From NCBI RefSeq assembly GCF_963675165.1, contig NC_087390.1, positions 5,031,301-5,095,300 on the forward strand: DNA of 64,000 bases. Direction: 5' to 3'. The DNA is from Halichondria panicea (lineage: Eukaryota; Porifera; Demospongiae; Suberitida; Halichondriidae). The translations under genes and the position numbers were made by a program. Each line of letters opens with the position of its first letter. The stretch's first letter is position 1. The notes below the pieces were generated by a model that was not told where the DNA came from, made no database searches, and saw only the letters and a program-made list of their open reading frames with translations. This document shows, piece after piece, positions 11,001 through 63,748 of the stretch.

Positions 11001-12504
11001 CAACTTTCCCAAATCCTCCACAAGCTTGTTGTAGGTTTTCATTAGCAGTAACAAGTTCAATGTCAGCCTTTGTCTGTGGGTGGATCTTGTCTAGTTGAAA
11101 CTCTGCTGTGATCTCCTCGATTCGTTTCAATAGAGGTGTCCTCATTTTCAACACCTCGCCCACTGTTCCGGTATCGAGAACAGCTGTAGCATACTCAAAG
11201 CAGCTGCTCATCTTTGCTTCGGTCATCTCTACGTAGCTCCTCTGCATTGCTAGCTCTTCTAGTTTCTGCTGGGTCAGCATATGTAATCTAGCTACTAATT
11301 CCGCTCTCCGTTTTTCCAGAAGTTGGTGTAGGTGGTCAATTTCGCTGTGTATGTCAGCTTCAACAGTGTCTCTCTGGTCATTCACTTCTTGCCTCCTAGT
11401 TTCGAAGATACTCAAAGCATTACTCACTTTGTATAGCTTTGTCTTGAGCTGTTTAACACTTCTAAATGTTTCCTTTTTGTGTTTTTGGTAGACCTCCCTA
11501 GCCAAGTTGTAATCATGATTTCTGTGCAAACGAATAGTACAATCGTTACAGATCAGTTCTGAGCAAGTCTCGCAGTAGATCCTTGCCTCCATGTCGGAAT
11601 GTTTCTCGCATTTCACCGATGGCTGTTTGGTTGGGGCAAGCTTTCCCACTGCATTGGCTTCAACTTTGTTTATGCCCACTATTTGGTGCCCATAATTCAT
11701 CTTCCATGCATTGTGAGCTTGTGTACAATCATCACAGATAAACATACCACACTGACGACAGTATTTGGTTGCATTTTTGTCTGTACAGTTTTCACATTTT
11801 GTGTTCTTGGCTTTCTGAAGTGATTCTTGTATTTCGAAGAGGTGCTCGATATGGAAGTCTGTTTGTAGTCCCACTACTCCATTGGCTGGTAGAGGTACGA
11901 GGTACCGACAGGTGGGGCAGGTAAGGGACTGTCCCTTGCTAGCTTGAACCACTAGTTTCTCGAGACAAGGTGATTTACAGAAGATGTGGAAACAGGGCAA
12001 TAGTTTCGGCTCCTTGAAGTTGTCGAGACAAATGGAGCATTCTAGTTTAGAGTCGATCTTCTTCAGAGCTTCTTCGGCAATTTTGGGTAGCTCAGCCATT
12101 GTGCTGTAGAACTGTAATATTGTGCAAATCAGTTATAAATTACTTAGCTAAAACATTAACTTAATACATGTAACTGGGTGGTCAATACTTGAATTATCTA
12201 TATACGTACCGTACCTGATTCTAAAAAGGGTTGCCTGGTGGGTCTTGTAGGCGATTGTTGGGTATAATAGTCACGTGAGTTGCTTGCATTTGTGTGGACT
12301 CTGTGGAACCACACATCACACCAACAAAAGGCAACAATGCCATATTTACTCTTGTACATGCAGGATTGCCAATTTCATTTCACATGAACTGTCAATGACA
12401 TAATCGTTTCCTAGCCTCGATTCCTATCGATAAAAAGGGTCTAGATCGAGGCTACTATTCTCCTACATGTACATGAATATAGCTGTTGTAGTCTCAGTTT
12501 CAAT

Positions 12505-16709: not shown

Positions 16710-19700
16710 ACACACACACCCTCACGCCCACCCTCTACAGCACGAGCACCCGGGTCATTCATCCCCCTCCCTACGAGAGAAGTCCCTCCTCCTCACTCGG
16801 ATGATGGTCTTCTATGAAAAGAGGTTCCCAGACGATCAAGAACTACTCGCCCAGTTCCTAGAAATCATTCTATTTGTCTACAAGTGAGTAGTGAAACATA
16901 TGACTTCACGCAACTTAGTATTGTACTGTAAGTTCAGTTGGCTTCCAGAAACTCCCATTGCCCCTCTGTATACTAACATCACCACCCTTTCATTAACTTG
17001 ATTTGATTACTAAACAACAGACTACAAAGAATTGTGCAAACATTATTTTGAGTTAAACTGTAGGCGGAATCGATTCCTTAATCCTTTCTTGCCCCCTAGA
17101 AACGAGAGTGCCAGTTCCTCGGAGCTGCTGGCCAAGTTGGAGCCCGCCTTCCTCTGTGGCCTCCGCTGTCCGCAGGTGCCCATGAGGTCAAAGTTCCAGG
17201 AGGTGTACGAGGGAAGCGTATCACAGAGGGTGTTTGACAGGATGCTCTATGTACTCTGCTCTCAGAACTGGGAGCATTGTGGAAGCTACTTCTGGGTCAA
17301 GCATTGCATTGATGTAAGTATGTGTGCTCTAGTGTATATATATCATGGTGTTTCAAGAGTGTGTGTACCATTGAATATCGAATTAGTGGTGTTTAAAAAT
17401 ACACTAGTTACGGCTTTGTAAGAGTTGTATAGCTTAACTGTGTTTTTAAACAATTCCACAATTGTGTAGACTTTTCTATATAATATGCATGCACATGTAT
17501 GTATAGTTAAAATCAATAACTGTGTGAGCACACTATGGGATATGGATAGACAGAGCTACAGAAAGCACATTTTCGTTTAAGTTATGACCTCTCAAATCAG
17601 CTGTGTTCTTTTCCCCCCTCCAGCTGGTCCTGACGGCTGGGTCCCATGAGGACCTGATAAACCACTCCCCCTCATCCCCTCGGCTCCCTTGTATCTCCTC
17701 TATCAGTCACATCACGACCACTGTCACCACTGACGTCACTGAACCACCAGCTATCTCAACTCAACTACCTGAGGTGAGGGGTGTTTACATGTAATAAGTT
17801 TGATTTCAGCTCTCCTTTCATATTTGAGAATGTTACGATTTACAGTTTTAGGGATTGGCAAAAGTTTTGAAGTGAAGCCCAAGGCCGATTCTATGTCAGC
17901 CTAAATACGTGCATATCGTTCAAAACGACTAAAGTCTAGGTTTGACCTTCATAAAGTTGTCATAACTTTATCATACTTCACTGAAATTCTAAGTTCATAT
18001 ACCATTGGATTCCTTGTTAAAAAGCGCTTCTATCTATATGCTGTAGAGCTGGTAAGCTCCAACCCAGCTAAAAGTTATCATTTTCCATGTAGAAGTCCCA
18101 TTTTGTCCACCACATAAAGCATAACTGAAGCCATAAATATGCCTCGGTGCGCATGCGCCTGCGAGGTATACGGTAGTGGGTCTGTGTCTGTGTGTCAGCT
18201 GCTCAAGGATCAATGAAGTGCAAGTAAGAGTTTCTAGTCATGTTTTCTTGGCTTGCCATTTGTGGATTTACAAAATAAAGCTTCGTTCTCGAGTTATGCC
18301 TACTTGGAATGCCATTGCAGCCTTTTCAGAAGAGTCTGTAGCAAAACTTGTTCACCGAGTGTTGCTACTTTACTTAGTAGTTAGCTCTGCACTAGAACGC
18401 TAGCTATTGGTAGCTGCGAGAGTGAGAAGAGAGCTGCAAGGCTCTGCTGAATTGCAGCCATTAATTTTAGACTTGAAATTTTGGCATCAATCGGTTTTAA
18501 CAACAATCATGGTTGATCATTACCCACTATTTGAGTTTCCTTGTGATTGCTTTCATTCCTTCTGTATTGCACTGAACTAAAGGGCGACTTAGATTCGAAG
18601 CTAAGTACTATTTATGGAATGTAAACGTATTCACACCACTTCCTGTCGTACCTCCTCTGACATATCATGTGTGTCTTATGATTATTATGATCTTTTCCTA
18701 CTTAAAATGGCTACCTCTAGCTCTCAAAACAAAGCTGCTGCTATAGGCTATGAGTGTAGGTTTCTGGACCAAGTTCCTGAAGAGTACCTTTGCAGGCAGT
18801 GCAAACATGTAGCAAGGGAACCTATTATTGTTGATTGCTGCAATGAGACCATGTGTGAAGCTTGTGTTCAAGAAATGATGGAAGACAAGAAGCCATGTTC
18901 AAACTGTCAAAAAGTACCTGTCAAATATATCCCCAATAAGATCAAAAACAAGATTCTAGATCTAAATGTTCACTGTTTGAACTGTCAAAAAGTACCTGTC
19001 AAATTTATCCCCCAAAACAAGATTCGGAGTTGCAAATGGACAGGACAACTACAACAACTTGATGAACACTTAAGTGACTGTGAGTATGTCGACACAAAGT
19101 GCCAGCAGTGTAAAAAAAGCGTTCAAAAACGTAATATGATTACACACCTTGCCAACGAATGCCCTGAAAGAGAGTTAGTGACAGAAGTACATTTTGTAAA
19201 CTACCAGTTATACATTCTGAAGTGCCCCAATGGATGTGGGGTACATTTCGAGCGAGGTGATCTTGAAGACCACATAAATATGTGCAGCCTTCAAAAAGTC
19301 GAGTGCAAGTTCAATTTTGCTGGTTGTGAGGCTGAGTTCATACGAGGCCAGCAAAAAGATCACATGGAACAAAACACACAGAAACACCTTGCCTTAATAG
19401 CTACTACTCTGAGAATCAGCCAAGAACAGCAGCAAGCATTCGATCAGAAGCTTCAAGAACAGACACAAATGACAAACAAATTTAAAAAGCAACAGATAAC
19501 TAGTACCACCAGAAGCCTATGGTCCGTCTACATTCTCCTTATCTCTTTATCTGTTCTGATCATTACATGGGCAATATGCTATGAACAAGAAGAAAATAGT
19601 AATTGTGATAACATTTTTCAAACACTGAAAAAAGACACAGAAAAAAGCATTGAAGCAATGAAAAGCAAAACTGAGAAGGATATTAATGCACTGAAAATGG

Positions 19701-22700
19701 AAACTGACAAAAGGATGGAAGTAATGAAGATCAAAACTGAGAATGAAATGACCAAGAAAATCAATGCCATGCAAAGGGAACACGAGAAAAAAATTCATGC
19801 ACTGATTGATATTCAGAACAAGAAAATTAACGTTAAAAAACAGAAAACAAAACATGACAACGAGAGAGAAAAAACAGAGTTTGCGGATTGGTTTATGGAT
19901 TGGATTGTGTATTTGATTAAAATTAGGTCGCCTCCTAGTTACTTTTAATGCGTTACATATATATTATAATTATTATTATGTTATGCATTATGCATTGGTC
20001 AGGATTATTGCGCAAACAGATAGTTATTACTATGAACTTTGAACTCAATCATAGATTGTGATGTCATCAGATTCTAAATAGTGCCAGTTTTTGTAGTTAG
20101 CTAAGCAGAATCATAGAATTTAGCTAGACAAGAGACTACTGGTAGCCTACATCTATAAAGACAAGCTAGAAATATTTGCCTGGGCTGCTCCTACGCCACT
20201 GTTATGCATGTAGACAGTAATGCACTTGTACTGAAATGTTATAGTGTAGGAATGTTAATTATTCGTTTCCTGTTTAGCTGAGCCCCCTTTTGATGAGAGC
20301 CTCTTCTGTCTTAAAACTAGTGTTCAAGCCTTTTAGACCAACGCAATAGATGACATAAGCCACAGCTTCACAGAACTCAGTCATAGAGATGAAGTATTAC
20401 GGAACATATTCTTACTAATTTCCTGTGTAATTTACTAAGGTTTTACGTTCGTAGTACGATTAATTACCCAGTAATTTGAAGCGCATGCGCACTATCACTC
20501 CTGCAATAGGTACCAGGCCGTACTTTTATCGGCCTTGAATCGAGGCTAGGGCGAGTCCCATAGTTTCGAGTACTGTAGAGAAAAGCTCAGCGACCGGATA
20601 TCCGTCTGAGTGTCTGTCTGTCACTTGAAGCTTTTTAGCATGATGATCGCTCCATTTGCACGCTTTTTAGTGTGACGATCTGTTTATCTCGTAGTTTAGC
20701 GTGACGATCGCTGCAAGACATTAATTTTTATTTCTACTCGAACTCACGGGATGAAACTGATACAGCTTAACAACTAAGGCAGTGAGGCAATGGCGTTGAA
20801 CACACCATCTGCTGGCAAGACTAAGGGAAGTTTGACAACAAAAAGGAGCTAATGAGACAGAAGCTCGTCTGTCGTCAAAAGGTTCGAATTGAAGAGGAAA
20901 AGAGAATTGCAGTTAGAGAGATCTTTAGGAAACGAAGGAAACAGCACGTCGAAAAAGTAATTACTAATCATTACAACTTCTTTGTCTTCGCTAAGGCTAG
21001 GCTCGCCCTAGTTGGGCGGAGTCCAACCACGCTTTGCCAGTGGTTGGGTATCACGACAATATACGTTTTTGTTGCAACTGCAGAAAACTTGCAGCCCAAT
21101 CAGATTGCAGCGTTCAAGAAAGAAACCTTACAGCTCAATTAGTAGTTAGCTTTGCACTAGAACGCTAGCTATTGGTAGCTGCAAGAGTGAGAAGAGAGCT
21201 GCAAGGCTCGGCTAGGCTGATGCAGCCATTAATTTTAGACTTGGCATCGATCGTTTTTAACAACAATCATGGTCGATCATTACCCACTCTTTGAGTTTTG
21301 CATGCAAGCTAATGCAAAAATGTTCATCGTGTATATAGTAGCTTTATGTTATGTAGCTTTGGCATCTCCACCGAGGCATCAGCACCTGCGGTGTTTTCAT
21401 TGACCATATAACTTTCGGGGTCGAACTCAACGCAAATAGACTTTACGTTAAGCGTCTAAATGTTACGTTTTCAAATCAGTTTCAGAAACGGCTTGCTATT
21501 TGTGGCTTGCTATTTGTACACACATTTGCCTAAGATTTTAACATAAGCTGTTCAATGTGACCCCCACACATACACTGTACACAGGAGTTGCTGGTTATGG
21601 AGGGTAACGACTCCAGCGGGGGTGAAGACGGAAGAGGGGGTGCTCTGAAGAAACTGGCCTCCAAATTAAACTCGTTTCTCACTGACGCTCGTACAATCAA
21701 GACCGGGCAATACCTGATCTCATTGGCCCACCTCTGTCACCTGGACACGGAGTTAGCTCACCATGTTTGGATCGACCTCTTCCCTCGGGTGTGGACAGCA
21801 CTCTCTGATGCACAGAGAGAGGTCGGTCAGAGATACAAATGTATTGTGCTTTTACTTGCAAGTGTTTTGTGCTACGTTTCATGTACATGTACTTCTTGTA
21901 TGCTGGCTGACCTTGTGCGTGTTGTATTGTTTATAGTAAATGTATTGCAAACAGTTTTCTTAGATGATTATACTCACAATGCATGTTATGTTGGTGGTTA
22001 ATTCTACCTTTTTTATGACTGTAAGACCTACGTACTGCCACCGTAATTGAAGCTCCATATTACAATCATCTTTATACGGTAATTATAGCTTATGGAAAGG
22101 TTCTGTTTTCATCCTATACCTCTCCCAATCTTAAACTCCTCCCATTATACAGGTAGTGTCCAGGGAGGTGAGTCCATTCATGTGCAGTGGCGCCCACCTG
22201 GTACAGATGGACTCTCACCCCAGTGCTGTCGGCAGCTTCCTGGAGGCCGTGGTCAAGTGCAAGCCACAACCACAGATCAGGTCGTGCATACTGAAGGTGA
22301 GTGTGTACCATATCACATATACAGTGCATGTACACATTGTATAGGCCAGTGTCAATACTGTGTGACTTCAGCTGTATGTGTATATGCATGTAAGTGTACG
22401 TTCGTATGCCGAGTCAAAGAGTTATAGTTGTTATAGTACTTAGGGGATGAAGGTTAAACCTAGGGCCCCTTTTAAGTTTTAACTTTCCTCGTCTGCAAGA
22501 ATTGCGCATGGGCAGCAAAATCACTTCTCTCGAAAAACGCTATTCCATTTGTTGTTTGAATGGATATTATAATTATAGTCTATTCCCTCCAACACACATA
22601 CACACAGTACCTTGGTAAAACACACAACTATTGGCATGGCTCCGCCCTGCTGCTAGAGGAAAGGGTGCTCTCTGAACAAGAGGTAGCGGGAAAGGTACGA

Positions 22701-24197: not shown

Positions 24198-27100
24198 CAC
24201 ACACACACACAGTCCTGGAGAATGCGTGGCGTGTGCAAGACTGGACAGCCATGAAGGAAGCCTCCACACAAGCAGAACCAATTTGCTCTGAGAACTACAG
24301 CGCTCGTCTTAATCTCCTCCGAGGCTTCCTAGCTCTATGCTATCCTGATGAGCAGAGATTAAGTGCCGTGGAGAAGTTAATTGAGGCAGCCAGTATTCAG
24401 GGCATCAAGCAATGGCGGAGGCTACCTAAGATTGTGTCTCACGCTCATGTCTCTCTGCTGCAGGTAGGGTGGGGGGGGGGAGGGTTGCATGTGATGTGAT
24501 GTGGAGTGAGTATAAGATGTAATAATTATAATGGGCTGGCAATTATACTTTATTGATGGAGGATGAGATTTATAGTGTTGTTGGGGGATTAGGCCACAAC
24601 AAGAGGTAGTTCTGTTTCTGGTCAGGTTGCTTCTCTGATTACGTGAGGCCAGGAGGGACAACAGCAACTGAGCCACAAATATTTGCAGTGTCATCACTTT
24701 TTTATTTTTCACAGTTTATCTTTAAAAACGGTTTACAACACAATAAAATAACATACAGGAAGAGGTATTTTAGGCTTTGGCAACCAGAACATTGAACTGA
24801 GAATTGTCTCTATACCAAACACCTATATACTGTCATTGCACTAGCTTGAGCCATTGTAAGTGCTCTGTATCAAAGCAAAAAAGCAAAATGAGACCACATA
24901 ATTATTGTGTTAGCATAATAACATCTTTCTTTGCAAAATACAAGATAATAATATTATACAAGATACAATCACTATAGCTTACTGAATACCTTAAGGTGAC
25001 ATATTTTCGCGTGTATTAATTTCTGCTATTTCTGCGAATGAGAGTAAAATCGCAAAAATTAGTACTCGCATATAATTGGCCGCCCTCTTGTTTAATGTAT
25101 CCAGATCGACATTTCGCAAAAAATTATACCGCAAAATATACAAAACTGTAAAAACGCAAACAAATCTACCTGTGAAAATATGTCACCTTAAGGTATTGAA
25201 GTGTTGTAGGTGCTGTACATGTAGTTATTGCAACACCCACTCAACCTAAAGTGAGTGGGTGTGGTTTGCGCATGCGCATTAGGTGTGTTGCTAAAAAAAC
25301 AGCCCAGTGAAATATTGAGCGGCGGATGGACCAGAAACAGAACTACCTCTTGTTGTGGCCTTAGTGTAGAGCCTACATGTACATTGTATATATAATTATT
25401 TGCCATGATTGTGTCATAATTATATTTATAGCAGTTGCGTGCATGGTTATGCATGTTACCGTGAAGCGGGAATTAATTTTCGCTTGTGCAAATTACTCGA
25501 ACGTCCTCAAAAGAACTGTGTGTGGTTGTAAAATTCGCATTTCAATGTTCAATGCACACTCACCAACAAACTTTTGATGTGCAATTAATTAAACGTATAA
25601 AATACCGGCTCGTAGGAATTTCTCCCAGTTTTAATTTTTGCGTTAACTGATGTCACTTGAATGTGTTGTCTGTGATTAACTGGTATGCATGCCCTGGTGA
25701 ACTTTTATCTGATCATCAATTCTGATATGCGCAGGCACTGTCAATAAAGAATTAATCAAAGGTATATTAACCGCTGAATATACGTAGGCCCATTGTAAGG
25801 AACTTTTGTTACAGATTCAATTTATAACGCAGATATGCATGGTGGTATATCGATTGTGAATTGTGCAAAAATTATCATCTGATAAATACATAGCTACGTA
25901 TACATGCAGTTCAAGGCTTGTTGTTTAAAATATCTGTAGTCTATTGTTTCCTTTATCGGCCACTACTAAAGAATCGTTGTGATCGACGGCCATTCCATAG
26001 ATAGATCTGAACTTTGTTTGATCGGAACCTTCTCCCCCGAAAGTTGTGATGTAGGCTCCCTGAGAGTTGAAGACGCTTACATAATGCGGACCGTTCTCAC
26101 TGACGTACACTGTGTCATTGCTGTCAATGGCAAGACTGTACGGACCGCTTAGCTTTTCACCGTTCGCTTTTTGTGCAAATGATCGTAGAAACTGGCCTTT
26201 TACTGTGAAGACTTTCACACATTTGTTGGTGTGGTCAGAAACATACAAGTTGTTGGCACTATCAAAGGCAATGCAATAAGGATATTGAAATTGTTCGCTT
26301 CCTTCTCCACAAGACCCAAATGATCGTACATGTTTGAATTCTGTGGAGAGCACTTGTATTCTGTGATTATAGCTGTCTGTGACATACAGGTAGTTGTCAT
26401 GGTGATTGAAACAGATGCCATATGGCCACTTGAACTGCAGACTACCGCTTCCTGAAGTACCGACTTTTGATACAAACACTCCTTGTGAATCGAATTTTTG
26501 TATGCGATGATTTCCATAATCTGCTACATAGACATTGTCGTCTTTGTCCACAGTCACACCATGTGCACCGCTAAGTTGTCCGTTTCCCGATCCTTTTGTA
26601 CCAAATGTTCGTACCTTTCACCTTTCGTAGTGAACACTGAGACACAACGTCCATCTTCCTCGATAACTACCATTTGACCTCATGTAAAAACAACAACTCA
26701 TGTAAAATTAGCAATCTTTAGTCGAACTTTATATGTAATTATGTGGTGCCTATATCGAATTTTGCAAAAAAATTGTGTGATAAAACTGACGTAGCTAAGA
26801 TCTGTTTGTAAGTGTAGTTGGTCACTTAGTTTGTTTCATAATGTGCATAAGAACAATAAGTATGTAGCTACGGAAGACAGTACAGTGTATAACAACCCAT
26901 TATTTAGTTTGTTTCTTGTTTAAAATGCACTCAATTGAGGTAAAATGAAATAACAGTAAGTACATGGCATTGTGCAATAATATAGATACATTACAGTCTT
27001 TAGCTCGTTTTAAGTATTTGTTTCCTTTATCGGCCACTATACTAAAGAATAGTTGTGATCAACTGCCATTCCATTCCATAGATAGATCTGAACTTTGCTT

Positions 27101-30100
27101 GATCGGAACCTTCTCCCCCGAAAGTTGTGATGTATGCTCCCTGAGAGTTGAAGACGTTTACATAATGCGGATCATTCTCACTGACGTACAGTGCATGTGT
27201 CACTGCTGTCAATGGCAAGACTGTACACTAATAGCTTTTTTCGCCGTTCGCTTTTTGTGTAAAAGATCGAAGGAACTGACCTTTCACTCTGAAAACTTTA
27301 ACGTAATTGTGTTTATTTAGGTCAGAAACATACAATTAAATTGTTAGCACTATCAAAGGCGTTGCATTGAGGATATTGAAACTGTTCTCCTAGAGATCCA
27401 ATTAATTAGTTTTGTTGCAAATTGTGCAAAAAAGGATATTCGAATAACACACCCACACACACATAATTAGTGATTAGTATATATACACACACACACACTT
27501 CACCCGTAATATTATTTATAGCTAATTAGTTTGAAAATATCTGTAATCTATTGTTTCCTTTATCGGCCACTACTAAAGAATCATTGAGATCGACGGCCAT
27601 TCCAAAGATGTTTTTGAACTTTGCTTGTTCCGAACCGTTTCCCCCGAATGTTGTGATGTAGGCTCCTTCGGACTTGAAAACACTTACATAATGGGGACCA
27701 TATAAATTCGGACCATTCTCACTGACGTACACTGTGTCATTGCTGTCAATGGCGATACCATACGGATGTTTTAGTTTATCACTGTGCGATTTTTGTGCAA
27801 AAGATCGGAGGAATTTACCTTCAGTCGTGAAAACTTTCACACAATTGTTGCTATGGTCAGAAACGTACAAGTTATTGGCACTATCAAAGGCAATGCAACG
27901 AGGATTTTTAAGCTGTTCGCTTTTTATTCCTTTCGACCCGATTGATCTTTTATGTTCGAGTTTTGTGGAGAGCACTTGTATTCTGTGGTTATTGCTATCA
28001 ACAACGTACAAATGATTGTCATGGTGATTGAAACAGATGTCGACTGGCCTACTGAACTGCAGGCTACCACTTCCTGAAGTACCAACTTTTGATATAAACA
28101 CTCCTTGTGAATCAAATTTTTGCACACGATTATTTCCACAATCTGCTACATAGATGTTGTCATCTGTATCCACAGTAACACCAAACGCATCGTGAAGTTG
28201 TCCATCTCCTGATCCTGCTGTACCAAATCCTTTTCCTTTTTCACCTTCTGTAGTCAATACAGAAACAGAATGCCCGTTACTCTCGATAACTACCATTCGT
28301 CCTCGGTTGTCAACAGTTGCTCCATTCGGATCGAATGAGCTGATTACTTTGCTTGGTCTGCCAAAGCTTTGTGGTGATAATGGTACGACTACTTGGAATG
28401 GACTCCCTTTTATAGGGTCCCCATTAGCAGTGACATGAAGCTCATGTATTCCTCGGTTCATTGGACGATAGCCAATGCTATGGCGGCCATTTTGTAAATT
28501 AGCTACACAGCTTTTTTGGCTTTTTCGGCTTTTTACGTGAACTAGATTTGCCTTGAGCTCTAAGCTGCCTTCGTAGCTTCTCTTCTTCTTTGTTTGTGCT
28601 TTAAAAACCACAGTACTTGTTTTTCCAATTGTTGCACCTTCTAAACCACCTTCAGATACCTGTATGTGGCTGTTTTCTGTACAGATTATATCCGTTTCGA
28701 TAATTTCGAACAGCTGTTGACAAGCTTGCACAACACTTTTCTTCTCATCTAGTTTTAGTTCAAAATTCCAAGCTATCTCGGGTTGAGAGGCGTCCTTTTC
28801 ATGCTCAACAATGGTGCGTTGGATATCACTGATAGTGATGTCTTTTGCTTGAACGACATCTTTCATATTCTTCATCTTCGTTTCTACAGCCTGTTCGCAG
28901 CTATAGAGATCTTTTTGAATAGTCTCGGCTTTTATTTTCTGTTCGTTGAGAGTTTGCATTGTTTCATGAGTCAGTTTCTTCAGCTCTCCTACCCGCTTAG
29001 CTTTGAGTTGGTCGAGTAGGCACTTGAGTTGCTCAATTTCTCCCTCTATATCTGCTTCCAGCATGGCACTTTGCTTAGTGATCTTCTCTTGCCTTCTCTC
29101 GATAGATTTCAATTTGGAATCAGCTTTTGAGGCACTCTCTTTGACTGGTTTCAATGCTTTGCTGATCTCAATCCTATTTTTAGAAAATACCTCTTGTATT
29201 GTGACACATACGTGATTTGAGTGATCAGCACAAGTACATTCATCGCATAATAGCTCGTTGCAAGTTTCACAGAATAGCTTGATTGCCTGTTTTGGGTGTG
29301 TGGAGCAATTGGAATTGATCAGATTCTCTTGTTCCTGTGATAGGCTGGTAATACTATGGGTCTTTAGTATTTTCACTTTGTTATGAATGGTCCTACACTC
29401 ATCGCAGATAAACCCCTTACAATCATTGCAGTAGGCTGTAGCAGCTGTTTCCTTCTCACAACTGACACACACTCTCTCAAGGGCACATTCAGTTTTTTCT
29501 AGTACCTCTTTAACGATTGTGTTCTCTGCCATTATAGAATTTGATTGAACTAACAGCTATAAGTGCTTGTGATCTATATATAAATGCTAAAGACTTACTT
29601 TCGATGTATTTATAGATATTATCCCATATGGGTATGTTTTGACATTTTACCCCATGTATAATTAGAGTAGATACAATGTACTCTTATCTACTATATCAAC
29701 ACCATGACAACCACAACACGCGCGCACACACACACACACACACACGCATGTACAGCTCTCCCAGCAGATCATGGAGCTTCAGGAGGCGACCACCATTCAC
29801 AGTGGCCTGCAGTCGGGTGGACTAACTAGACAATCATTTCAGACCGAGATTAAGACCATCTTTAAAACATGGAAGTAAGTACAAACGTATAGTTTATACT
29901 ATTTTCAAACTATACTTATTAATACAATGGCCATGACAATGTGTTTTGGTGTACGTGCCATGTGATTGCATTGATTGCCCATGCACTAGCTCCACCTGCT
30001 TTAGGCCCCAAAACATTTCTCTGTTGAGTATATGAGTAATTGTTTCCATAGAAACCGCTTGCCGAACTGCTCAGATGACTTAAGCCACTGGAGTGACATT

Positions 30101-48978: not shown

Positions 48979-51900
48979 CTAACCTTGAACAATATTACAG
49001 ATGCTTTCTGCTAGTTGTACATCTTTCTTCTGCAGACACATACCAACGAGGACCGAGTAAGTAGCTTTGAAGCCGTTTGCTTGCTTCCATAAGCTCAGGA
49101 CTTGCTGAGCTTTCATCTCTGGATCAAGAAGATGGTCTGATTTGATATTGACAATTTGTGGCTGGTTTAGTCCCAGAACAATTGCGTATTTCTGCCAGTT
49201 TGGAACTAAAGGAGCAATTTTTGTGAAATGCTCAGTAGAGCAAGGTTGATGGAGGAGGTCTTTATTGATACCAATGTGATTCACTAGCTCGTCAAGGGTC
49301 GTAGTTGGTTGAGATGCATTAGCAGGGTGAAGAGGACCTACATGGATGTGCACGTGTGTGTAAGAAGTTAAATTAATGTGAAGCAACAATACCGCTAGTT
49401 CTTAGAACTAGTGGTATTGTTACTTCACATAATTATAAACTACATGTACATGTACTAGCCTCGTTCTCAGGCCGAGTTGTCTCTAAAATAACGCTTAGGT
49501 ATTGATTGTATCTGGGCGTGGTTATAGGAACCAAAAAATTTTCAGAACGGAGTGATTTGCATAAACAACGCATTTATAGTTATACCTGTCGACAAGGGCC
49601 GGCAGTGTTGGTCCTACCTATTAGCTTGTAGTCCATCACAAGGGGCACCAATTGGTCAAAGAGACTTAATTGCTATACCATGTTGAAAACCAGACAAAGA
49701 CGTTTCTTCCTTCTGACAAGAGCTGGGCCTGTTCTGCAATGAGAGTGAGGCATTCTTGCTTCAGCAAGACGTTAATCTGAACAACTTAAACTTGCCATAG
49801 CTAGCTAGCTAGATAATCTATAGCTACATTTTAGTACTGCAGAGCATACACGGAGCTAAATTACGGTATTAACGTTATACGGGGAAAAATGACAGGAAAC
49901 CGAAATGTGAAGAATCTCTGCTTTCGTTTCCGGTTCCTAACCACGCCAGATACAATCAATACCAGGCCATGTATTATTCACTTCGTTCTATTAAAAAAAA
50001 AATCAGCCTGGGAACGAAGCTATGTATTTTTTACTAAAAAAAATTGGCCTAGGAATGAGGCTATATATAGTACAATCATGCATGACTGTACCTTAAAGCT
50101 TGCTGTATGCAGAACATAGTATTACGTATAATTATGACATAATCATAATCACCTGAGGTGGAGTGTGCCATGCTTTGAGACTGCAGGGCATACAGCTGGT
50201 CATTGTAAGCATAAGACCCTGGGGAAAACACCAGTCAAGCAATTGTTAACTGTTTTACAGAGAGATTCGTACCTTGTAACGATGGAGAAGTGGTAGCTAG
50301 CCATGGATGCTGGTTCCCAGATTGCTGACCTGGAATTGCTAGCGCACCCATTGGGTTGAGCACTTGAGGAGGGGCCACTGACAGTGAACCTACACACATT
50401 TTAACTGTTTATTAGTTCATCAACACAAATAGATACCTTCATTTGGATCTACTGGGTCCAACATAATCCTTATTTGGTCATCTGGATCTTTAGTTCCTTT
50501 TAAGGTTATCAGGTGTAAGCGTCTTGGTACCTTGCAGTGCCAGCTACTCTCAGAAAGTGTTGCTACTAGCTTAGTGGATGGAACGGTTCTCCCCGGCTTG
50601 AATGAATCAACTATACTCTTTGATATCTAGATACAACACATGCAAACTTAATTAACACAATTTTGTAAGATTTTAGAAACATGCCTTTGGGGCAACAAGT
50701 GGTAGAAGACTCCATTCATTGATATCGACACCACTGGATAATGGAATATCTAATGAAATAGTCGAGTTGTCAAACTCTACTTGAAATTTTAATTTCTCTT
50801 CCGCTCCCAACTTTTCAAAGTACTTCCGTGTTTCCTTTAAAAATAATTAGACACTGCAGTCAATTATGGAAGCTCAAAGTCGTAATTTATAGGCACACAA
50901 AACACCGTAGAATACGTCACTCACAGCTATATGTATCTCATCATTAATATTGATTGCGAAATGAATCTCCACGGTCCGAGGGTCGGCTTTTAGGTAGTAT
51001 AGACTGGCGACATACAGTACATCAACATCACCCTCCGCAGCTATTGCATATGAACTGAAATGATTCACACTCAAACAACCGTACGAGCTGTGCTCAGTGA
51101 ATGAGCCACGCCCTTCAAGCTGCTTGAATGTGTAGGGCAGATTCTCCTGGGAGCAATGTGCTCTCACAAATGAGAGCTTGGTGGAGCTGGTCATCTTGGC
51201 ACAGTGCTGTATCTCGACTGTCAGCTGCTGTTGGAATTGACACAAGGGAAGAGGAAGTATCCAGAAAACACCGCTGACTAGTCGGTGATTGTCAGGAAAC
51301 TGGTACTGTCCAGCTAAACTGGCCTTGATGTCTAGTCGACACCGATCAACACCAGCTGGCAGGGAGCCCCGGGGTATAGTGAGCTTAAACCCATAGCCAA
51401 CCCAGTGGAAGGTTTGGGGTGAGTTGGTAACGATCACACAAGTGCTGGCCACCACATCAACACCAGGGAGGTCTGAGTGGAGGGAACAGTATAGAATGAA
51501 AGCACCGTGGGCGTTGACGCCTCGGTGAATGTGTCAAAGCTCTATGACATAAAGCTACTAACTATTGCTAATAACACACAATCGATCATTATTATTGTTA
51601 AAAAGAAGCAAAAGAACAAAGTCTAAAATTTATAGCTGCTGGATCAGTACAGTAAAGCCTTGCAGCTCTTTTCTTTGGAGATACCAATAGCTAGCGTTCT
51701 AGTCCATAGCTAACGAGTGCTGCAAGCTGTGCTGTGCTAATGCCTATAAGGTCTGAGGAATTGATCCCTCCAAAACGTTGTAATGCATCATTAGTACTTA
51801 GTATGCAATATGCAACTAGGTCAACTGTGATGCACTGGGGTATGGTCAACAAATGTGGGAGTGGCCAAGATTTTACGGCACATTAGTACCGTCTATGGTG

Positions 51901-54814
51901 TGCAATACGTAACTTAGATCTACTGTGATGCACTATCACGTAATAGGGTGTGTTTCATTAGCAATGGCAGATTCGATGTTAAACGAAGAAAATATCCTGG
52001 ATTTGTGTAGCTACGTTCACAACGGTCTCGAAATAAGATCACCTAGCTGTTTACCACAAAAGACGATCGTTATCAATAATCAAAATAGATCGCAATAGTG
52101 ACAGAAGACTGTATTAGTACATGTAGCTGTTGTGAAACAGATAAACACATTATTTTGTGGCTGTCTCTCATGCTCTTTATGTGACCTTTGCTCGTGTGAA
52201 ATTTGTCATTGCAGATGTAACTAACTAACTGAGCGGTAGAATGGGCCTAGCGAACAGAATATACAATGCACACAGTAACCACCATTTTTAGCTTCTGAGT
52301 AGCATAGCCAGGAAAACTGCTTCAGACAGAATCGAGTGCTAAAACGACCTCTTCTTACTGTACTCTTTCCAGCAATTTATTTGAGTAATAAAATTATATT
52401 CATGGCTATCGTGGGCGTGCACGTCCTGTATAGTTAATTCCTGGACTTCTGCACGAGTATAGTTAACATAGGAACTTGACCAGACGATCTTTTCTAAAGC
52501 GTGGCAGACGCGAGACTAGGGTTTCTGGGCAACCAGGAAACAATGGTAGCTACGCCCCTGCATGTAATGGGGACAACAACATTGCTTACCAAAACGGTGT
52601 ATGGATTCCTGCGGCTGACTCAAGATTTCAATTGGTAGATGAGGGAGTGATTTGAGGTCTTGATAACCTATCAGTGAGTAATCACGCACATGTCAGGCTA
52701 TATCACATGTTATTGTCCACCTATACATATGTATGGGCACTCACCTGGTTCAACCTCAACCTCCTGATTCTTTGCTCGGAGGTTGCTTCTTAGTTTCTCA
52801 TTTTCTGTATGGTCACAGCTAAATACCTAACTGATTATACAATCGATTTTTGTACCTTTTTCTAGCTGGTGAATCTTGTCAGCTTGCTTGTCATACTCAT
52901 CTGTTAACTGATCCAGCTCCTCCTCCAGACGCTCATAGTCTAGTAGCTGTCGCTTCACTTCAGATCTCAATTCAGTCACAGAATTTTCTTCACCTAACAA
53001 AATAATGTGTGTAATTATGTTCACAGCTATTTTAAAGGAAATGCACCTAATTTATTTAGTTGGTGAATCTTGTCAGCTTGATTTCCACACCTCTCAGTCA
53101 ACTGATCCAATTCACCCTCCAAATTTTGGACAAGGAAATGAAGACTCACGTTCTTCAGGATCAGATGCATACTATCTGCATGTATATGGTCACAGGTGCA
53201 TGCATAACCTAACTGACGATAGATTATACATACCATTTTCTTTCAGGAAAATCTGGTTGCCGTAATTATCGGTCAACTGACAAACCTCCATAGTCATATT
53301 CTTCAGTTCAGTTTTAAGAGTATCATACTCTAGTAGCAGATGCTTCAATTCATCTCTCAATTTTGTGAGAATACTTTTCCAGCCTAATGTGAAATAATAA
53401 TTATGATACACTTACTAAAAGCATGGCTGCATGTGTTTTCTCGTACCTTGTTCCTTGTTTCCAGGACTTAACTGAACCTCTGAGTCCTCTATCTCTGGCA
53501 GTGACCCAGTCACACATTTGGCTATCTGCTCAGTGAGATGACCCAGGTCCATCTTCCTCAGGACAGTAAACAGGCTTTCCCAGGTAGGGGGGTAAGTTGG
53601 TCGTATACTTCTCTCCCAAGCACTGAAGATCTGCTCAATGTAATCTCTAGCAGAGAGTGTGAGAGCTTTTTTTCTATCTTTCACTGAAAGCTGTACCCGA
53701 GAGGTGGTGTAGAATCGATACAAATCCTTAGAGAGAGCATCCATGAGATTGATTCCATACTTGTGCAGTTGGTTCAGCTTGGGTATGCTGAAGTGTACAT
53801 CACTGTCAACCAAAGGTGCTGCATAAAACATAATAATCATTATAATTATGCCTTGAGTAGCTGCATGCATATACCTCTTAAAAAGGCCCTGAATACTTTT
53901 TTATTTGAATTTCCTCCTTTGTCTTTTCCTCCAATAATCATCAACTCCCCAGTTGGCACAGCAACAGCAGATGATTCTGTCAAGGATAGAGGCAGGTCAG
54001 CAGCATGCTCCCAGGACTGGGTGTTGGGGGAGAACGCATGAATGGTTGTTGTGGGGGCATAAAAAACACCTCCTCCAATAGACAAGAGATGATCACCAAA
54101 GAAGGCAGCAGCTGTAAGCATATTTGGAGCATCAGGTAACGTCTCCCATGGAAACTTAACTGCACCAGATATAAGCGATTGTAGAGATGCAAGGAATACA
54201 ATTCCAAAACACGTGATCAGGTACCACTGGTCACCATGAAGAGCAGACTTCATGTTAGACCCTGCACTTGGTAGGGAGGGAGCAGTCGTCCACTGGCCAT
54301 CTTTAAACACTTCCACAGAGGAGAGGAATCCTGAGGTATTCTTACCTCCAGCCACAACTAGTGCAGACCCACTACTGACAGCAGATGGTGAACTTCGGCT
54401 CTCATTCATAGGAGGCAGTGTTTCAACAAACTGTCCATCCCTCATCGTGAAGACTTTGTTTGTTTCCTCTCTCGTAAAATACTCTTCCCCACCCACCAGT
54501 AACAGTTCAGAGTCATGGACGACAAGGGTAGAGCGATAGGTGGGTGTGTCTGTCATTGTCCATGTGGTGTCAACTCCAAGTTTTAATGAGCACAGTTTGG
54601 CAACAGTCGGTCCTCCTCCAACGTAGAGTGTTCCATTCAGGTACACGGATTCAGAAGAGGCATCACTCATTTCCACTGGTAGAAAAGGCAATTCATCCCA
54701 CTCCAGAGTTGTAGAGGGATGAAGGATATCAAGAGTCTGCATGAGAGGAGCATTTAACATTCCCAACTGATAGAGCTACATGTAGATAATATATGAGGTT
54801 ACCTGTTCAGCCAT
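48979..54814 (-). CDS. Kelch - coiled-coil - ZU5 - UPA-like - Death protein, gene 1 (14 exons)
   Basis: Exons, 5' to 3': 54803-54814, 53875-54766, 53447-53818, 53234-53383, 53047-53175, 52856-52993, 52745-52804, 52590-52667, 50925-51520, 50685-50834, 50437-50626, 50273-50389, 50153-50218 and 48979-49337. The sum is 3,309 nt, about 1,102 aa. Domains: Kelch propeller (about 1-300; LYVGGGPTVAKL, LLLVGGEEY, ALVVAGGKN, LMIIGGKD), Death-fold-like segment with PPTWESLFTVLRKMDLGHL (about 302-425), heptad-rich coiled coil (426-584), ZU5 (611-809; FHWVGYGFKLTIPRGSLPAG), UPA-like strands, a Pro/Gln-rich linker, and a C-terminal Death domain (PNWQKYAIVLGL). ZU5-UPA-Death occurs in UNC5, PIDD and ankyrins (apoptosis and immune scaffolds). 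The Kelch front end suggests sensing or cargo binding. Odd points: a 36-nt first intron, a GC-AG intron after exon 10, and cassette exons. Confidence 0.88.
49375..49431. repeat. Near-perfect 57-bp palindrome in the last intron of gene 1
   Basis: ATGTGAAGCAACAATACC.. is mirrored by ..GGTATTGTTACTTCACAT with almost no loop, around GTTCTTAGAAC. It lies about 40 bp 5' of the Death exon in transcript sense. Confidence 0.8.
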
Positions 54815-58283: not shown

Positions 58284-61200
58284 TTATTCACCTTTGTATT
58301 TCTCCTCAATTTGATCTGCCAGATTGATTTGTTTGACAGTGTCACTTCTGAGGCCATTGCAAATGTCATTCCATGTACGAGAAGGTGAGTACTGCAACCA
58401 GTGGGTCAACATTTCACGTAAGCGATCTTGGTCGTTGCTTTCATTAGATTTGATGGCTTTGAGCATACCAACTTGAATTCCCAAAGAAAGCCCCAAATTA
58501 AACCAATTAGTAACGACTTCCATCAAGTTTGAAAACACTTCTTGCAAGTCTCTTGTGCATAATTGATTTTCACATTCCTCGTGTACAACATTGCCTACGT
58601 GTGCATATAGGGTGAGCATTATTTGAACTGAGTGGATAGTCATATGCATACAGTGTACACGTAACTGTATCTTTCGTTTTAGTTCGGCCTTCAAATAAAT
58701 TATAAGAGAGGCAGATCAGTATATGATCTCAATTAAGGGTAGGTATAACATAGGCAGATCAGTATTAGAGCAATTATATCATTACTAAATATGTGTTTTA
58801 TATACTTTGTGATGGTACAAGTGCTTGATCGGCTGGGAGAGAGTTTGCTGTCAGACGAATGCAAAGTGAAAGGAAAAACAGTTTTAGATAAAGTACATAC
58901 CACCAATTCTTTCCGCTGGGGGGTCTACTTCCACCAACAGCTTGTTCTTGGGTTCCCTGGCTCCTATCAGATTTAAAACATAGCGAAAATATTGCACTTC
59001 TTCTTCAGGGCGCAGCACTCTGGCTTTCAGTTGGAGAGACGGAAAAGCACTTGTACCAGGGTTAAACGAGTCCACATCCCCTCTAGTAACCTGTATCATT
59101 ACATCATTACAGCATGACAAACTGAAACTAGGCACTATATACTCACAACAGGTGTTACTAGTGGGTAAATCCTCCATCCATCTTTCTCAATACCCTCAAG
59201 CATGGGAATGTCGAGAGATATTGGTTCACTTGGAACTTCAAACTCTATTGCGAGATGGGACCCTTTCTCTGCTCCGTTTCTTTCATAAAATTGTTCCACA
59301 GCCTGCACAATTAAATATGAAATATAACCTTACGACATTTGAACATTACCGAAAGGTGAGCTTCATCATTCCAAGACAATACTACGTCAATCTTTGTGGT
59401 ATGCTTAATGTGTGGATAGTAGTAGAGGCTGGCAGTGTAGTGTTTGTCCACATCTTCTCCTGTCACAGCCAGTCCACTAAACTGGGTCAGCTTCAGTAAT
59501 CCATACGAGCTGTACGCAGTGAATGAGCCACGCCCTTCAAGCTGCTTGAAGGTGTAGAGCAGACTCTCCTGGGAGCAATGTGCTCTCACAAATGAGAGCT
59601 TAGTGGAGCTGGTCATCTTGGCACAGTGCTGTATCTCGACTGTCAGCTGCTGTTGGAATCGACACAAGGGAAGAGGAAGTATCCAGAAAACACTGCTGAC
59701 CAACTGGTGATTGTCAGGAAACTGATACTGTCCAGCTAAACTGGCCTTGATGTCTAGTCGACACCGATCAACACCAGCTGGCAGGGAGCCCCGGGGTATA
59801 GTGAGCTTAAACCCATAGCCAACCCAGTGGAAGGTTTGGGGTGAGTTGGTAACGATCACACACGTGCTGGCCACCACTTCAACACCAGGGAGGTCTGAGT
59901 GGAGGGAACAGTATAGAATGAAAGCACCGTGGGCGTTGACGCCTCGGTGAATGTGTCAAAGCTCTATAACATAAAGCTACTAGCTATTGCTAATAACACA
60001 CAATCGATCATGATTATTGCTAAAAAGGAACAAAATACTAAAATTTTACAGCTGCTGGATCAGTGCAGTAGAGCCTTGCAGCTCTTTTCTTTGAAGCTAC
60101 CAATAGCTAGCGTTCTAGTCCATAGCTAACGAGTGCTGCAAGCTGCGCTGTGCTAATGCCTAAGGTCTGAGGAATTGAGTATCAGGGTTTCATCTAGTGG
60201 GAGGGGGGCAGGGGTGAACCTTCCCTCTAAAACGTTGTAATCGCATCATTAGTACTTGGTATGCAATAATTATGTAATGTAACTAGATCAACTGTGATGC
60301 ACTGGGGTATGGTCAACAAATGTAGGAGGGGCCAATATTTTGCGGCACATTAGTACCGTCTATATGGTGTGCAATACGTAACTTAGATCTACTGTGAGGT
60401 GTGTAATTAACAACTGTGGGAGTGGCCAAATATTTTGCGGCATGCTTACGCGGCCCAAACCTTAAATACCATTGTGCCCATCATGTTTTAACTTACAAGC
60501 AGCCACAACGCAAAGCTTCAGAACATGCATGGGTTGCGCAGTGCACATATATACACAGCCTTTGGACAGATCCTGAACAACCTTAGCCGCCCCTTTGTAT
60601 TTACCAGCCATGTTTCGTTAACATTGTTCAAAAAGCCTCAAGTATTTTCTCTGCAATGGCTTGTCCAGTGGTGTATCACATCGACAAACACGTCACAAAT
60701 CAACAAAGCATAGCACAAGAGGTGTTGTTTCTTGTTTGAGTAATCAGCTGCTTCATCAGCACAAACAAAGAATGTTGCATCTTTGATCTCACTGAAAATT
60801 TGCTCCCGTATCCACTCTCCAGCACGAGATGAGCGTTCGTTCTGAATTTGTGGCAATTGTACCGTGCATTTTGGAAGGCTGTCTGGAAGTGTTGTTCCAA
60901 GATGATATTTTTTATTTTAAGAAAATGTCCTGGATTTGTGTAGTTATGTTCACGATGGCCTCAAAGTGAGATCACTTAGCTGTTTGCCACAAAAGACGAT
61001 CGTTATCAATAAGGATCGCTTTTTTTTAGCAATAGTGACAGAAGACTGTATTAGTACATGTACGTAGCTGTTGTGAAACAGATAAAACACATTTTGTGGC
61101 TGTCTCTCATGCTCTTTATGTGACCTTTGCTCGTGTGAAATTTGTCATTGTAGATGTAACTATAACTAACTGAGTGGTAGAATGGGCCTAGCAAACAGAA

Positions 61201-63748
61201 TACAATGCACACAGTAACCACCATTTCTAGCTTCTGAGTGCATAGCCAGGAAAACTGCTTCAGACAGAGTTGAGTGCTAAAACGACCTCTTCTTACTGTA
61301 CTCTTTCCTATTTGAGTCACAAAATTATATTCATGGCTATCGTGAGCGTGCACGTCCTGTGCGGTTAATCCTAGACTTCTGCATGAGTTTTTAACATAGG
61401 AACTTGACCAGACGATCTTTTCTAAAGCGCGGCGGACCCGAGACTAGGGTTTCTGGGCAACCAGGAAACAATGGTAGCTACGCCCCTGCATGTAATGGGG
61501 ACAACAACATTGCTCACCAAAACGGTGTATGGATTCCTGCGGTTGACTCAAGATTTCAATTGGTAGATGAGGGGGTGATTTGAGGTCTTTATAACCTATC
61601 AGTGAGTAATCACGCACATGTCAGGCTACATCACATGTTATTGTCCACATTCACCCTATACATATGTATGGGCACTCACCTGGTTCAACCTCAACCTCCT
61701 GATTCTTTGCTCGGAGATTGTTTCTTAGTTTCTCATTTTCTGTGTGGTCACAGCTGAATAACCTAACTGATTATACACAATTAATAATTATGTCACCTAT
61801 TTTTAGCTGGTAAATCTTGTCAGCTTGCTTGTCATACTTATCTGTTAACTGACCCAGCTCCTCCTCCAGACGCTCATAGTCTAGTAGCCGTCGCTTCACT
61901 TCAGATCTCAATTCAGTCACAGAATTTTCTTCACCTAACAAATAATCTGTGTAATTATGTTCACAGCTGTTTTAAAGGAAATGCACCTAATTTATTTAGT
62001 TGGTGAATCTTGTCAGCTTGATTTCCACACCTCTCAGTCAACTGATCCAATTCACCCTCCAAATTTTGGACAAGGAAATGAAGACTCACGTTCTTCAGGA
62101 TCAGATGCATACTGTCTGCATGTATATGGTCACAGGTGCATGCATAACCTAACTGACGATAGATTATACATACCATTTTCTTTCGGGAAAATCTGGTTGT
62201 CGTAATTATCGGTCAACTGACAAACCTTCATAGTCATATTCTTCAGTTCAGTTTTAAGAGTATCATACTCTAGTAGCAGATGCTTCAATTCATCTCTCAA
62301 TTGTGTGAGAGTACTTTTCCAGCCTAATGTGAAATGATACACACTTATGATACACTTACTAAAAAGCATAGCTGCATGTGCTTTCTCGTACCTTGTTCCT
62401 TGTTTCCAGGACTTAACTGAACCTCTGAGTTCTCTATCTCTGGCAGTGACCCAGTCACACATTTGGCTATCTGCTCCGTGAGATGACCCAGGTCCATCTT
62501 CCTCAGGACAGTAAACAGGCCTTCCCAGGTAGGGGGGTAAGTTGGTTGTGTACTTCTCTCCCAAGCACTGAAGATCTGCTCAATGTAATCTCTAGCAGAG
62601 TGTGTGGGAGCTTTTTTTCTATCTTTCACTGAAAGCTGTACCCGAGAGGTGATGTAGAATCGACACAAATCCTTAGAGAGAGCGTCCATGAGATTGATTC
62701 CATACTTGTGCAGTTGGTTCAGCTTGGGTATGCTGAAGTGTACGTCACTATCAACCAAAGGTGCTGCATAAAACATCATTATAATTATGCCTAAGTAGCT
62801 GCATGCATACACACCTTTTAAAAAGGCCCTGAATACTTTTTTATTTGAATTTCCTATTTTGTCTTTTCCTCCAATAATCATCAACTCCCCAGTTGGCACA
62901 GCAACAGCAGATGATTCTGTCAATGATAGAGGCAGGTCAGCAGCATGCTCCCAGGACAGGGTGTTGGGGGAGAACGCATGAATGGTTGTTGTGGGGGCAT
63001 AAAAAACACCTCCTCCAATAGACAAGAGACGATCACCAAAGAAGGCAGCAGCTGTAAGCATATTTGGAGCATCAGGTAACGTCTCCCAAGGAAACTTAAC
63101 TGCACCGGATATAAGCGATTGTAGAGATGCAAGGAATACAATTCCAAAACACGTGATCAGGTACCACTGGTCACCATGAAGAGCAGACTTCATGTTAGAC
63201 CCTGCACTTGGTAGGGAGGGAGCAGTCGTCCACTGGCCATCTTTAAACACTTCCACAGAGGAGAGGAATTCTGATGTATTCTTCCCTCCAGCCACAACTA
63301 GTGCAGACCCGCTACTGACAGCAGATGGTGAACTTCGGCTCTCATTCATAGGAGGCAGTATTTCAACAAACTGTCCATCCCTCATCGTGAAGACTTTGTT
63401 TGTTTCCTCTCCCGTAAAATACTCTCTCCCACCCACCAGTAGCAGTTCAGAGTCATGGACGACGAGGGTATAGCGATAGGTGGGTGTGTCTGTCATTGTC
63501 CATGAACTGTCAACTCCAAGTTTTAATGAGCACAGTTTGGCAACAGTCGGTCCTCCTCCAACGTAGAGTGTTCCTTTCAGGTACACGGATTCAGAAGAGG
63601 CATCACTCATTTCCACTGGTAGAAAAGGCAATTCATCCCACTCCAGAGTTGTAGAGGGATGAAGGATATCAAGAGTCTGCATGAGAGGAATATTTAACAT
63701 TCCCAACTGATACATGTAGATAATATATGAGGTTACCTGTTCAGCCAT
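58284..63748 (-). CDS. Kelch - coiled-coil - ZU5 - UPA-like - Death protein, gene 2 (12 exons)
   Basis: Exons: 63737-63748, 62815-63706, 62392-62763, 62174-62323, 61987-62115, 61797-61934, 61680-61739, 61518-61595, 59350-59942, 59147-59302, 58901-59090 and 58284-58594. The sum is 3,081 nt, about 1,026 aa. Kelch, Death-like, coiled-coil and N-terminal ZU5 parts are nearly identical to gene 1. From about position 59500 leftwards the ZU5 end, UPA-like part and Death domain (NWFNLGLSLGIQVGMLKAIK, SPSRTWNDICNGL) are strongly divergent, and gene 1's two Pro/Gln-rich linker exons are missing. The first intron would be only 30 nt. Here it can be read through in frame (VTSYIIYMYQ), unlike in gene 1. 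The donor of the 58901 exon has two possible sites 3 nt apart. Likely role: intracellular signalling adaptor. The ligand is unknown. Confidence 0.87.
60630..60910 (-). pseudogene. hAT-family (DUF4371-like) transposase remnant
   Basis: The reverse strand reads EQHFQTAFQNARYNCHKF and, after a frame change, GEWIREQIFSEIKDATFFV and ADEAADYSNKKQ. That is the catalytic-core signature (xxADE-DxSNKEQ) of ZMYM/DUF4371-type hAT transposases. Another frame change follows before IHHWTSHC. It exists only in copy 2 of the segmental duplication. Confidence 0.8.

Follow-up and report, generated by a model that had tools for sequence, protein, structure and literature searches.

The window analysed here is a stretch of 64,000 nucleotides from the genome of the sponge Halichondria panicea (contig NC_087390.1, positions 5,031,301 to 5,095,300). 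From 54814 down to 48979, its minus strand carries a gene model, hereafter copy A, in which 14 joined exons form a single open frame, as a previous sequence-only reading of the window had proposed. Comparison with paralogs led us to shift two exon starts of the simplest joined frame, which is probably wrong at both places: exon 2 now begins at 54736, at a TGCAG/ACTCTTGA-type acceptor, and exon 9 at 51472, at a CTCAG/ACCTCC-type acceptor, giving a protein of 1076 amino acids. Among the 16 loci of the genome with a close copy of the Kelch exon (see below), a pattern search found the exon 2 acceptor in copy A and in L010-L013, L021, and L024, and did not find it in the other nine. The exon 9 acceptor is present at all 16, at 14 by pattern and at two (L019 and L021) by eye, with one base changed. 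The start codon and donor of exon 1 were seen in a second copy within the window (copy B), and in no other locus by pattern search. Intron 8 has 1117 bp, intron 13 has 815 bp, and all others measure 47-90 bp; the splice sites are GT-AG throughout save for intron 10, which is GC-AG and has GT at that site in the paralog L011. Intron 13 contains a 35-nt inverted repeat at 49368-49438, with arms 86% complementary and 1 nt between them, which is perhaps a small mobile element.

The Pfam search of the joined protein, put forward as a check by the sequence-only reading, recovers the Kelch propeller (E-value of 3.3e-14) and a C-terminal death-fold domain, as in PIDD, NLRP1, and CARD8 (30.2 bits for Death, cut-off 22.6), whose closest match in the PDB is CRADD/RAIDD (5e-4). 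The ZU5 domain of copy A is under the cut-off of 21 bits, with 15.7 bits in the whole protein and 19.4 in the exon alone. At the level of the family it holds: both paralogs scanned exceed the cut-off (21.7 and 23.5 bits), and 35 of 36 aligned family exons have a Pfam ZU5 match at an E-value of 1 or less (best 2.6e-6). A broad profile of 12 sponge ZU5 rows had nine PDB matches, among them ZO-1 (1.6e-9), ankyrin-3 (4.2e-6), and UNC5B (0.033), but neither NLRP1 nor CARD8; the profile of the 36 family members had ZO-1 as its sole match (0.64), and phmmer gave no PDB match for the ZU5-UPA part of copy A. The coiled coil is supported by the heptad contrast of exons 4-7, equalled by 1 of 500 shuffles with a simple home-made score. 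The two remaining elements of the order first read from the sequence are weaker. No UPA match was obtained among the Pfam families listed for copy A or the scanned paralogs, and position and alignment register point weakly to a UPA-like region in exons 10-11. Exon 3 lacks a Pfam Death match in copy A; of three paralog pieces, two reach 16.9 and 12.9 bits (cut-off 22.6) and the third has none. Its predicted structure is a six-helix one of low confidence, with a predicted local distance difference test (pLDDT) of 49, and a Death fold is only suggested. No NACHT, LRR, TRADD-N, Ig, TSP, Ank, or BTB domain was found in copy A, where, here and below, statements on absent domains cover 25 of 29 Pfam families.

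Table 1. Exons of copy A, residues around its predicted cleavage site, and copy B, with positions in the window.
Feature	Position	Strand	Basis
Exon 1, start codon, MAEQ	54803..54814	minus	ATG and GT donor same in copy B
Exon 2, Kelch propeller, residues 5-291	53875..54736	minus	Pfam Kelch_1, 3.3e-14; acceptor common to six other Kelch loci
Exon 3, possible helical Death-like segment (weak)	53447..53818	minus	Death matches under the cut-off in paralogs; exon found at all 16 Kelch loci
Exons 4-7, coiled coil	53383-53234, 53175-53047, 52993-52856, 52804-52745	minus	Heptad contrast
Exon 8, short linker ahead of ZU5	52590..52667	minus	Present in 4 of 16 Kelch loci
Exon 9, ZU5 and first UPA-like strands	50925..51472	minus	Family Pfam matches; broad profile matches
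Exons 10-11, putative UPA-like region	50834-50685, 50626-50437	minus	Each in 15 of 16 Kelch loci
Exons 12-13, linker	50389-50273, 50218-50153	minus	Joined frame; present in L011 too
Exon 14, Death domain and stop	48979..49337	minus	Pfam Death; closest PDB match CRADD/RAIDD, 5e-4
Predicted self-cleavage site, Phe739-Ser740	51054..51059	minus	Alignment to CARD8 F296-S297 and NLRP1 F1212-S1213
His706, candidate catalytic His (CARD8 H270, NLRP1 H1186)	51156..51158	minus	Alignment
His690, equivalent of CARD8 H252	51204..51206	minus	H in all 36 members
Copy B, another member of the family, from Kelch to ZU5	59344..63676	minus	Identity to copy A: Kelch 95%, exon 9 80%

Copy A belongs to a multicopy family of this genome. 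The ZU5 exon has 64 matches in the 131 Mb, 12 of which contain internal stops that may in some cases be read-through into introns. The Kelch exon has 16 matches of at least 68% identity and a next best of at most 37%, among the 131 of 405 candidates scored. At all 16 close copies, 15 on contig C14 and one on C17, the Kelch exon is followed on its own strand by a ZU5 exon, at a distance of 1.1-5.2 kb. Exon 3 accompanies them in every case, exons 10 and 11 in 15 cases each (the missing one being L022), sequence like the coiled-coil exon 6 in six, and exon 8 in four. Within the stretches read, a clear C-terminal Death exon was found at six of these loci (L009, L011, L014, L020, L021, and L024) and a weak one at two (L010 and L012). 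More distant Kelch exons, at least 115 in number and 32-37% identical to the query, lie mostly on C1 (at 11.0 and 15.48-17.85 Mb) and C6, with the rest on C12 and C28. At L054, a Kelch exon has a short coil-like stretch of charged residues ahead of it, and a protein kinase exon, separate from the first, is followed by coil-like sequence, as if kinase-coil-Kelch genes stood in a row.

To compare residues, we used a ZU5 alignment of 36 rows drawn from loci L009-L046, which represent 37 of the 64 matches (L031 is the same place as L022) and from which L031 and L044 (internal stop) were left out. CARD8 cuts itself at an SF-S motif, which needs Phe-296, Ser-297, His-252, and His-270; loss of Glu-279 lowers the cleavage and S295Q is without effect (PMC3210808). 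The NLRP1 equivalent of His-270 is His-1186 (PMC8081665). Counted from the Asp of exon 9, the corresponding residues of copy A are H90 (His690), H106 (His706), and F139-S140 (Phe739-Ser740). F139 and H90 occur in all 36 members and S140 in 35, with one Cys. H106 occurs in 14 of the 16 Kelch-linked members (L021 and L022 have Cys at this position) and in 6 of the 20 others, and the equivalents of CARD8 H252, H270, and F296-S297 are found all together in 14 of the 16 Kelch-linked copies.

The register comes from two alignments. A 14-sequence sponge ZU5 profile scored CARD8 at 7.1 bits, above 2000 of 2000 shuffles (those that HMMER did not report being counted as lower), and in its alignment F296-S297 falls on F139-S140 and H270 on the column of H106. 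The same register was given by hhalign on NLRP1 (probability of 0.8%, E-value of 0.073), with H106 on H1186 and F139-S140 on F1212-S1213. A plain MAFFT alignment was not relied on: it put the F-S of NLRP1 and CARD8 on that of the family, but misplaced H-C and the His region. Twelve extra ZU5 stretches were also taken, of which L061, L062, and L064 lacked a usable frame and L058, L059, and L066 were read but not used in the profile. At the site, the six other sponge ZU5 sequences that were aligned carry HFC (three), SFS, HCC, and HCG (one each), and the idea that F-S is peculiar to the family was dropped.

We interpret copy A, with confidence that is evenly divided, as a self-cleaving sensor of the PIDD, NLRP1, and CARD8 kind with a Kelch detector. 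It would be one cytosolic protein made of a Kelch propeller, a helical Death-like segment, a coiled coil, ZU5, a UPA-like region, and Death. With the CARD8-type residues in place by alignment, we infer that ZU5-UPA, once folded, cleaves itself at the bond joining Phe739 to Ser740. Kelch, coil, and ZU5, on the N-terminal side, would stay non-covalently bound and restrain the C-terminal UPA-Death part, until the Kelch-bearing part is bound, modified, or degraded and releases it. The freed UPA-Death could then assemble with a partner Death domain, possibly in cell-death or immune signalling. This reading is supported by the Death domain, because its closest PDB match, CRADD, is the partner of PIDD (PMC8385073), and by the residue before F139, which varies (H, Q, or K in Kelch-linked copies with the full residue set) and in this fits the lack of effect of S295Q in CARD8.

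Several observations weigh against it. H106 is lost in 2 of the 16 Kelch-linked and 14 of the 20 other members, yet these keep F and S (C in one case), and F-S may thus be kept for structure. Since HFC and FS motifs occur in other sponge ZU5 genes, the motif by itself is a weak argument. The score of NLRP1 against the 14-sequence profile was equalled by 63 of 2000 shuffles, and in the UPA half of a family-only profile 62 to 176 of 2000 shuffles scored as high as NLRP1, CARD8, and UNC5B. The hhalign comparisons with NLRP1 and CARD8 (probability of about 1%, E-values of 0.039-0.073) and with UNC5B were not significant. AlphaFold models, in which only the two copies of the window were aligned, reached a pLDDT of 33 for exon 9 and 49 for exon 3 and are of no use to this interpretation. 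Finally, a Death exon was not found at 8 of the 16 Kelch loci within the stretches read; for one of these, L017, a genome search that scored 150 of 334 candidates shows a 79% identical candidate exon on its strand, some 2.3 kb beyond the sequence read.

The rival that survives best, although we regard it as rather unlikely, is a single protein that does not cut itself and whose ZU5-UPA docks on Death, as in UNC5, and opens on Kelch binding. The many members lacking H106 would suit it, and UNC5B fits the 14-sequence profile, in its N-terminal ZU5 part only, at 16.8 bits, a score that none of 2000 shuffles reached. It accounts less well for a Phe that is invariant and followed by Ser or Cys, both possible nucleophiles, in all 36 members, whereas UNC5b has Leu-677 in place of CARD8 Phe-296 (PMC3210808). 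Taking this residue, by motif and with its numbering unchecked, as the Leu of DQLGTY in the UNC5B chain, the site there would be Leu-Gly. The presence of a self-cleavage motif in copy A suggests that release may need covalent cutting and not just un-docking. The cytosolic sensor or adaptor proposed by the sequence-only reading fits, as relatives seem to join other N-terminal domains to this module (see below), while release by un-docking alone is less favoured.

An ankyrin-type scaffold or cytoskeletal adaptor, with Kelch in place of ankyrin repeats, a ZU5-UPA that binds a partner, and no role in cell death, appears improbable. Ankyrins are indeed among the top PDB matches of the broad ZU5 profile, and in the relatives L048 and L050 ankyrin repeats precede the same ZU5-UPA-Death module. 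Against this stand the Death domain, closest to CRADD, and the tandem expansion and chimeric copy described below, which would suit recognition proteins more than the cytoskeleton.

The domains might also belong to two neighbouring genes, one with Kelch and coil and one with ZU5, UPA, and Death, read as one: the single frame is known from genomic DNA alone, and intron 8 separates the two halves by 1117 bp. We rejected this reading, which is very improbable, from the comparison with two paralogs. L011, about 0.96 Mb from copy A, has the complete set of segments of copy A, in the same order and from Kelch and the Death-like segment through to Death, within a single 10-exon frame, with 743 of 948 aligned residues identical (78%). 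Its coiled coil is in one exon instead of four, and its first exon was not found. The gap between exons 8 and 9 is 62 bp in L011 and 75 bp in L012, too short a distance for one gene to end and another to begin, and L011 keeps frame and splice sites across this junction. The Kelch-ZU5 order is moreover the same at all 16 loci. For copy A against L011, the ratio of nonsynonymous to synonymous divergence (dN/dS) amounts to 0.39 over all 948 codons and to 0.19-0.58 by segment; being below 1 in each, it gives every part the appearance of selected coding sequence. Copy A is thus very probably one gene from Kelch through Death, in agreement with the sequence-only reading. The long introns 8 (51473-52589) and 13 (49338-50152) of copy A are only 62 and 99 bp in L011. 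Between these two copies, dS varies strongly from one segment to the adjoining one (0.15 to 0.75), which suggests gene conversion among copies. Least credible of all is that copy A, in an expanding family, is decaying and yields no working protein: 12 of the 64 ZU5 matches have internal stops (some maybe by read-through) and intron 10 is GC-AG, but all 14 exons are open and dN/dS is as low as just given.

The second family member of the window, copy B, shares two large blocks of DNA with copy A, 94% identical and extending from Kelch into exon 9, and has only a weak match to the Death exon (E-value of 0.008). In a sliding-window comparison of exon 9, its identity to copy A drops from 0.93 to about 0.45 around residues 120-135, where that to L015 reaches 0.98, with a switch point just ahead of F139-S140. 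By this comparison, copy B is a chimera relative to copy A, with the UPA half of another class, and copies of the family appear to recombine near the predicted cut site. The sequences of exons 10-11 fall in at least three clearly different classes.

Judging from open-frame order at a few loci, relatives seem to combine the ZU5-UPA-Death module with other N-terminal domains. L049 (C1:5169001-5177000) has a series of frames on one strand that starts with protein kinase and coil-like sequence and continues with ZU5, UPA-like, and Death, and is possibly a kinase-ZU5-Death gene. At L048 and L050, the one-strand series of ZU5, UPA-like, and Death frames is preceded by ankyrin repeats; the Death match of L048 is just below the cut-off (22.4 bits against 22.6), and the ankyrin frames of L050, which end about 4 kb ahead of ZU5, could belong to another gene. 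We tentatively propose, as a possibility less likely than not, that these genes form a modular repertoire of self-cleaving death sensors, in which one ZU5-UPA-Death unit would be combined with varied N-termini (Kelch and coil, kinase and coil, or ankyrin repeats) and effector halves would be exchanged just before the cut site, so that detection and output are shuffled independently. If true, this would place the principle of NLRP1, CARD8, and PIDD, with a Kelch detector, in sponges. At L047 (C14:599501-603500, minus strand), a frame with a 2A-like GDVEANPGP peptide lies just upstream of a separate Death-like frame, itself upstream of the family member L026; this frame is Death-like by eye and has no Pfam Death match.

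Elsewhere in the window are a RING/B-box gene identified by Pfam (10768-12132), a RING- and TRAF-zinc-finger-like frame recognized by eye (18605-19948), and B-box-like frames with NHL repeats (25925-29556), the latter by Pfam for 25925-26617 only. Three related tandem frames with an NCQ.F motif (2705-8663) look LRAT-like by eye, and the one scanned had no Pfam match at 1e-4. The best match of a cathepsin-like exon is silicatein alpha (E-value of 1.5e-10), followed by a cathepsin L (1.9e-9), which is consistent with a demosponge without being proof of one.

A sensor followed by ZU5, UPA, and a death-fold domain is a known plan, found in PIDD, NLRP1, CARD8, UNC5, and ankyrins. To our knowledge, ZU5-UPA self-cleavage serves as a trigger in only a few proteins, namely PIDD, NLRP1, and CARD8. 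UNC5 netrin receptors have the order ZU5-UPA-Death and are membrane receptors with an ectodomain; they differ from copy A, in which Ig and TSP were not detected, and probably have Leu-Gly where it has Phe-Ser. Ankyrins too have ZU5-UPA-Death, and some sponge relatives have ankyrin repeats upstream, but they combine such repeats with tandem ZU5, whereas copy A has one ZU5 and no Ank match, the repeats being seen only in L048 and L050. NLR proteins have NACHT and LRR, and KLHL adaptors a BTB ahead of Kelch, none of which was found in copy A. NLRP1 and CARD8, whose FIIND corresponds to ZU5-UPA and precedes a C-terminal CARD, resemble copy A in ZU5, its putative UPA-like region, a death-fold domain, and the His, His, and Phe-Ser residues. 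They differ by a NACHT-LRR or disordered N-terminus and by CARD, where copy A has Kelch with a coil, Death, and a cut that is predicted only; of the two, only CARD8 matches the sponge profile above shuffles. PIDD1 has in common an N-terminal repeat domain, ZU5-UPA (the UPA being putative in copy A), an HF-S motif, and a C-terminal Death domain, that of copy A being nearest to CRADD, but has LRR and two ZU5 (PMC9573974) instead of Kelch, a coil, and one ZU5.

Fusions of TRADD-N or NACHT with ZU5 or FIIND in marine invertebrates are also similar, as a death-fold or NACHT domain is joined to ZU5 in expanded and shuffled genes, but copy A has no TRADD-N or NACHT. ZU5 has already been described in combination with TRADD-N, with NACHT from early animals, and with a kinase from amphioxus (PMC8195603, PMC12909245, PMC9573974, PMC8260672). 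The word kelch is absent from the main text of PMC8195603 and PMC12909245, on the TRADD-N/NACHT-ZU5 fusions, and a Kelch-ZU5 detector is not described in the excerpts of PMC8195603, PMC12909245, PMC9573974, PMC6208332, and PMC8260672. A Kelch detector of a ZU5-UPA-death-fold unit was not found in the open-access papers searched, nor was any paper among them with kelch, ZU5, and Amphimedon together; it is against these papers that the remark of the sequence-only reading, which did not know the combination from other animals, was checked. PMC7250440 reports a nematode protein with ZU5 and Death, the Kelch protein there being a separate one, and we set aside PMC11585957, PMC10045309, and PMC8390371, which, from their excerpts, concern MACC1 and in which Kelch is the name of an author (in the first two, sponge refers to microRNA sponging). 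Considering these systems, what would be novel in copy A is the Kelch detector, the plan itself being known. Natural variants with and without the catalytic His could show which residues let ZU5 cut itself. If the interpretation holds, a multicopy sponge family with the same residues as PIDD, NLRP1, and CARD8 and an unrelated detector would suggest that the self-cleaving module is an old and portable device.

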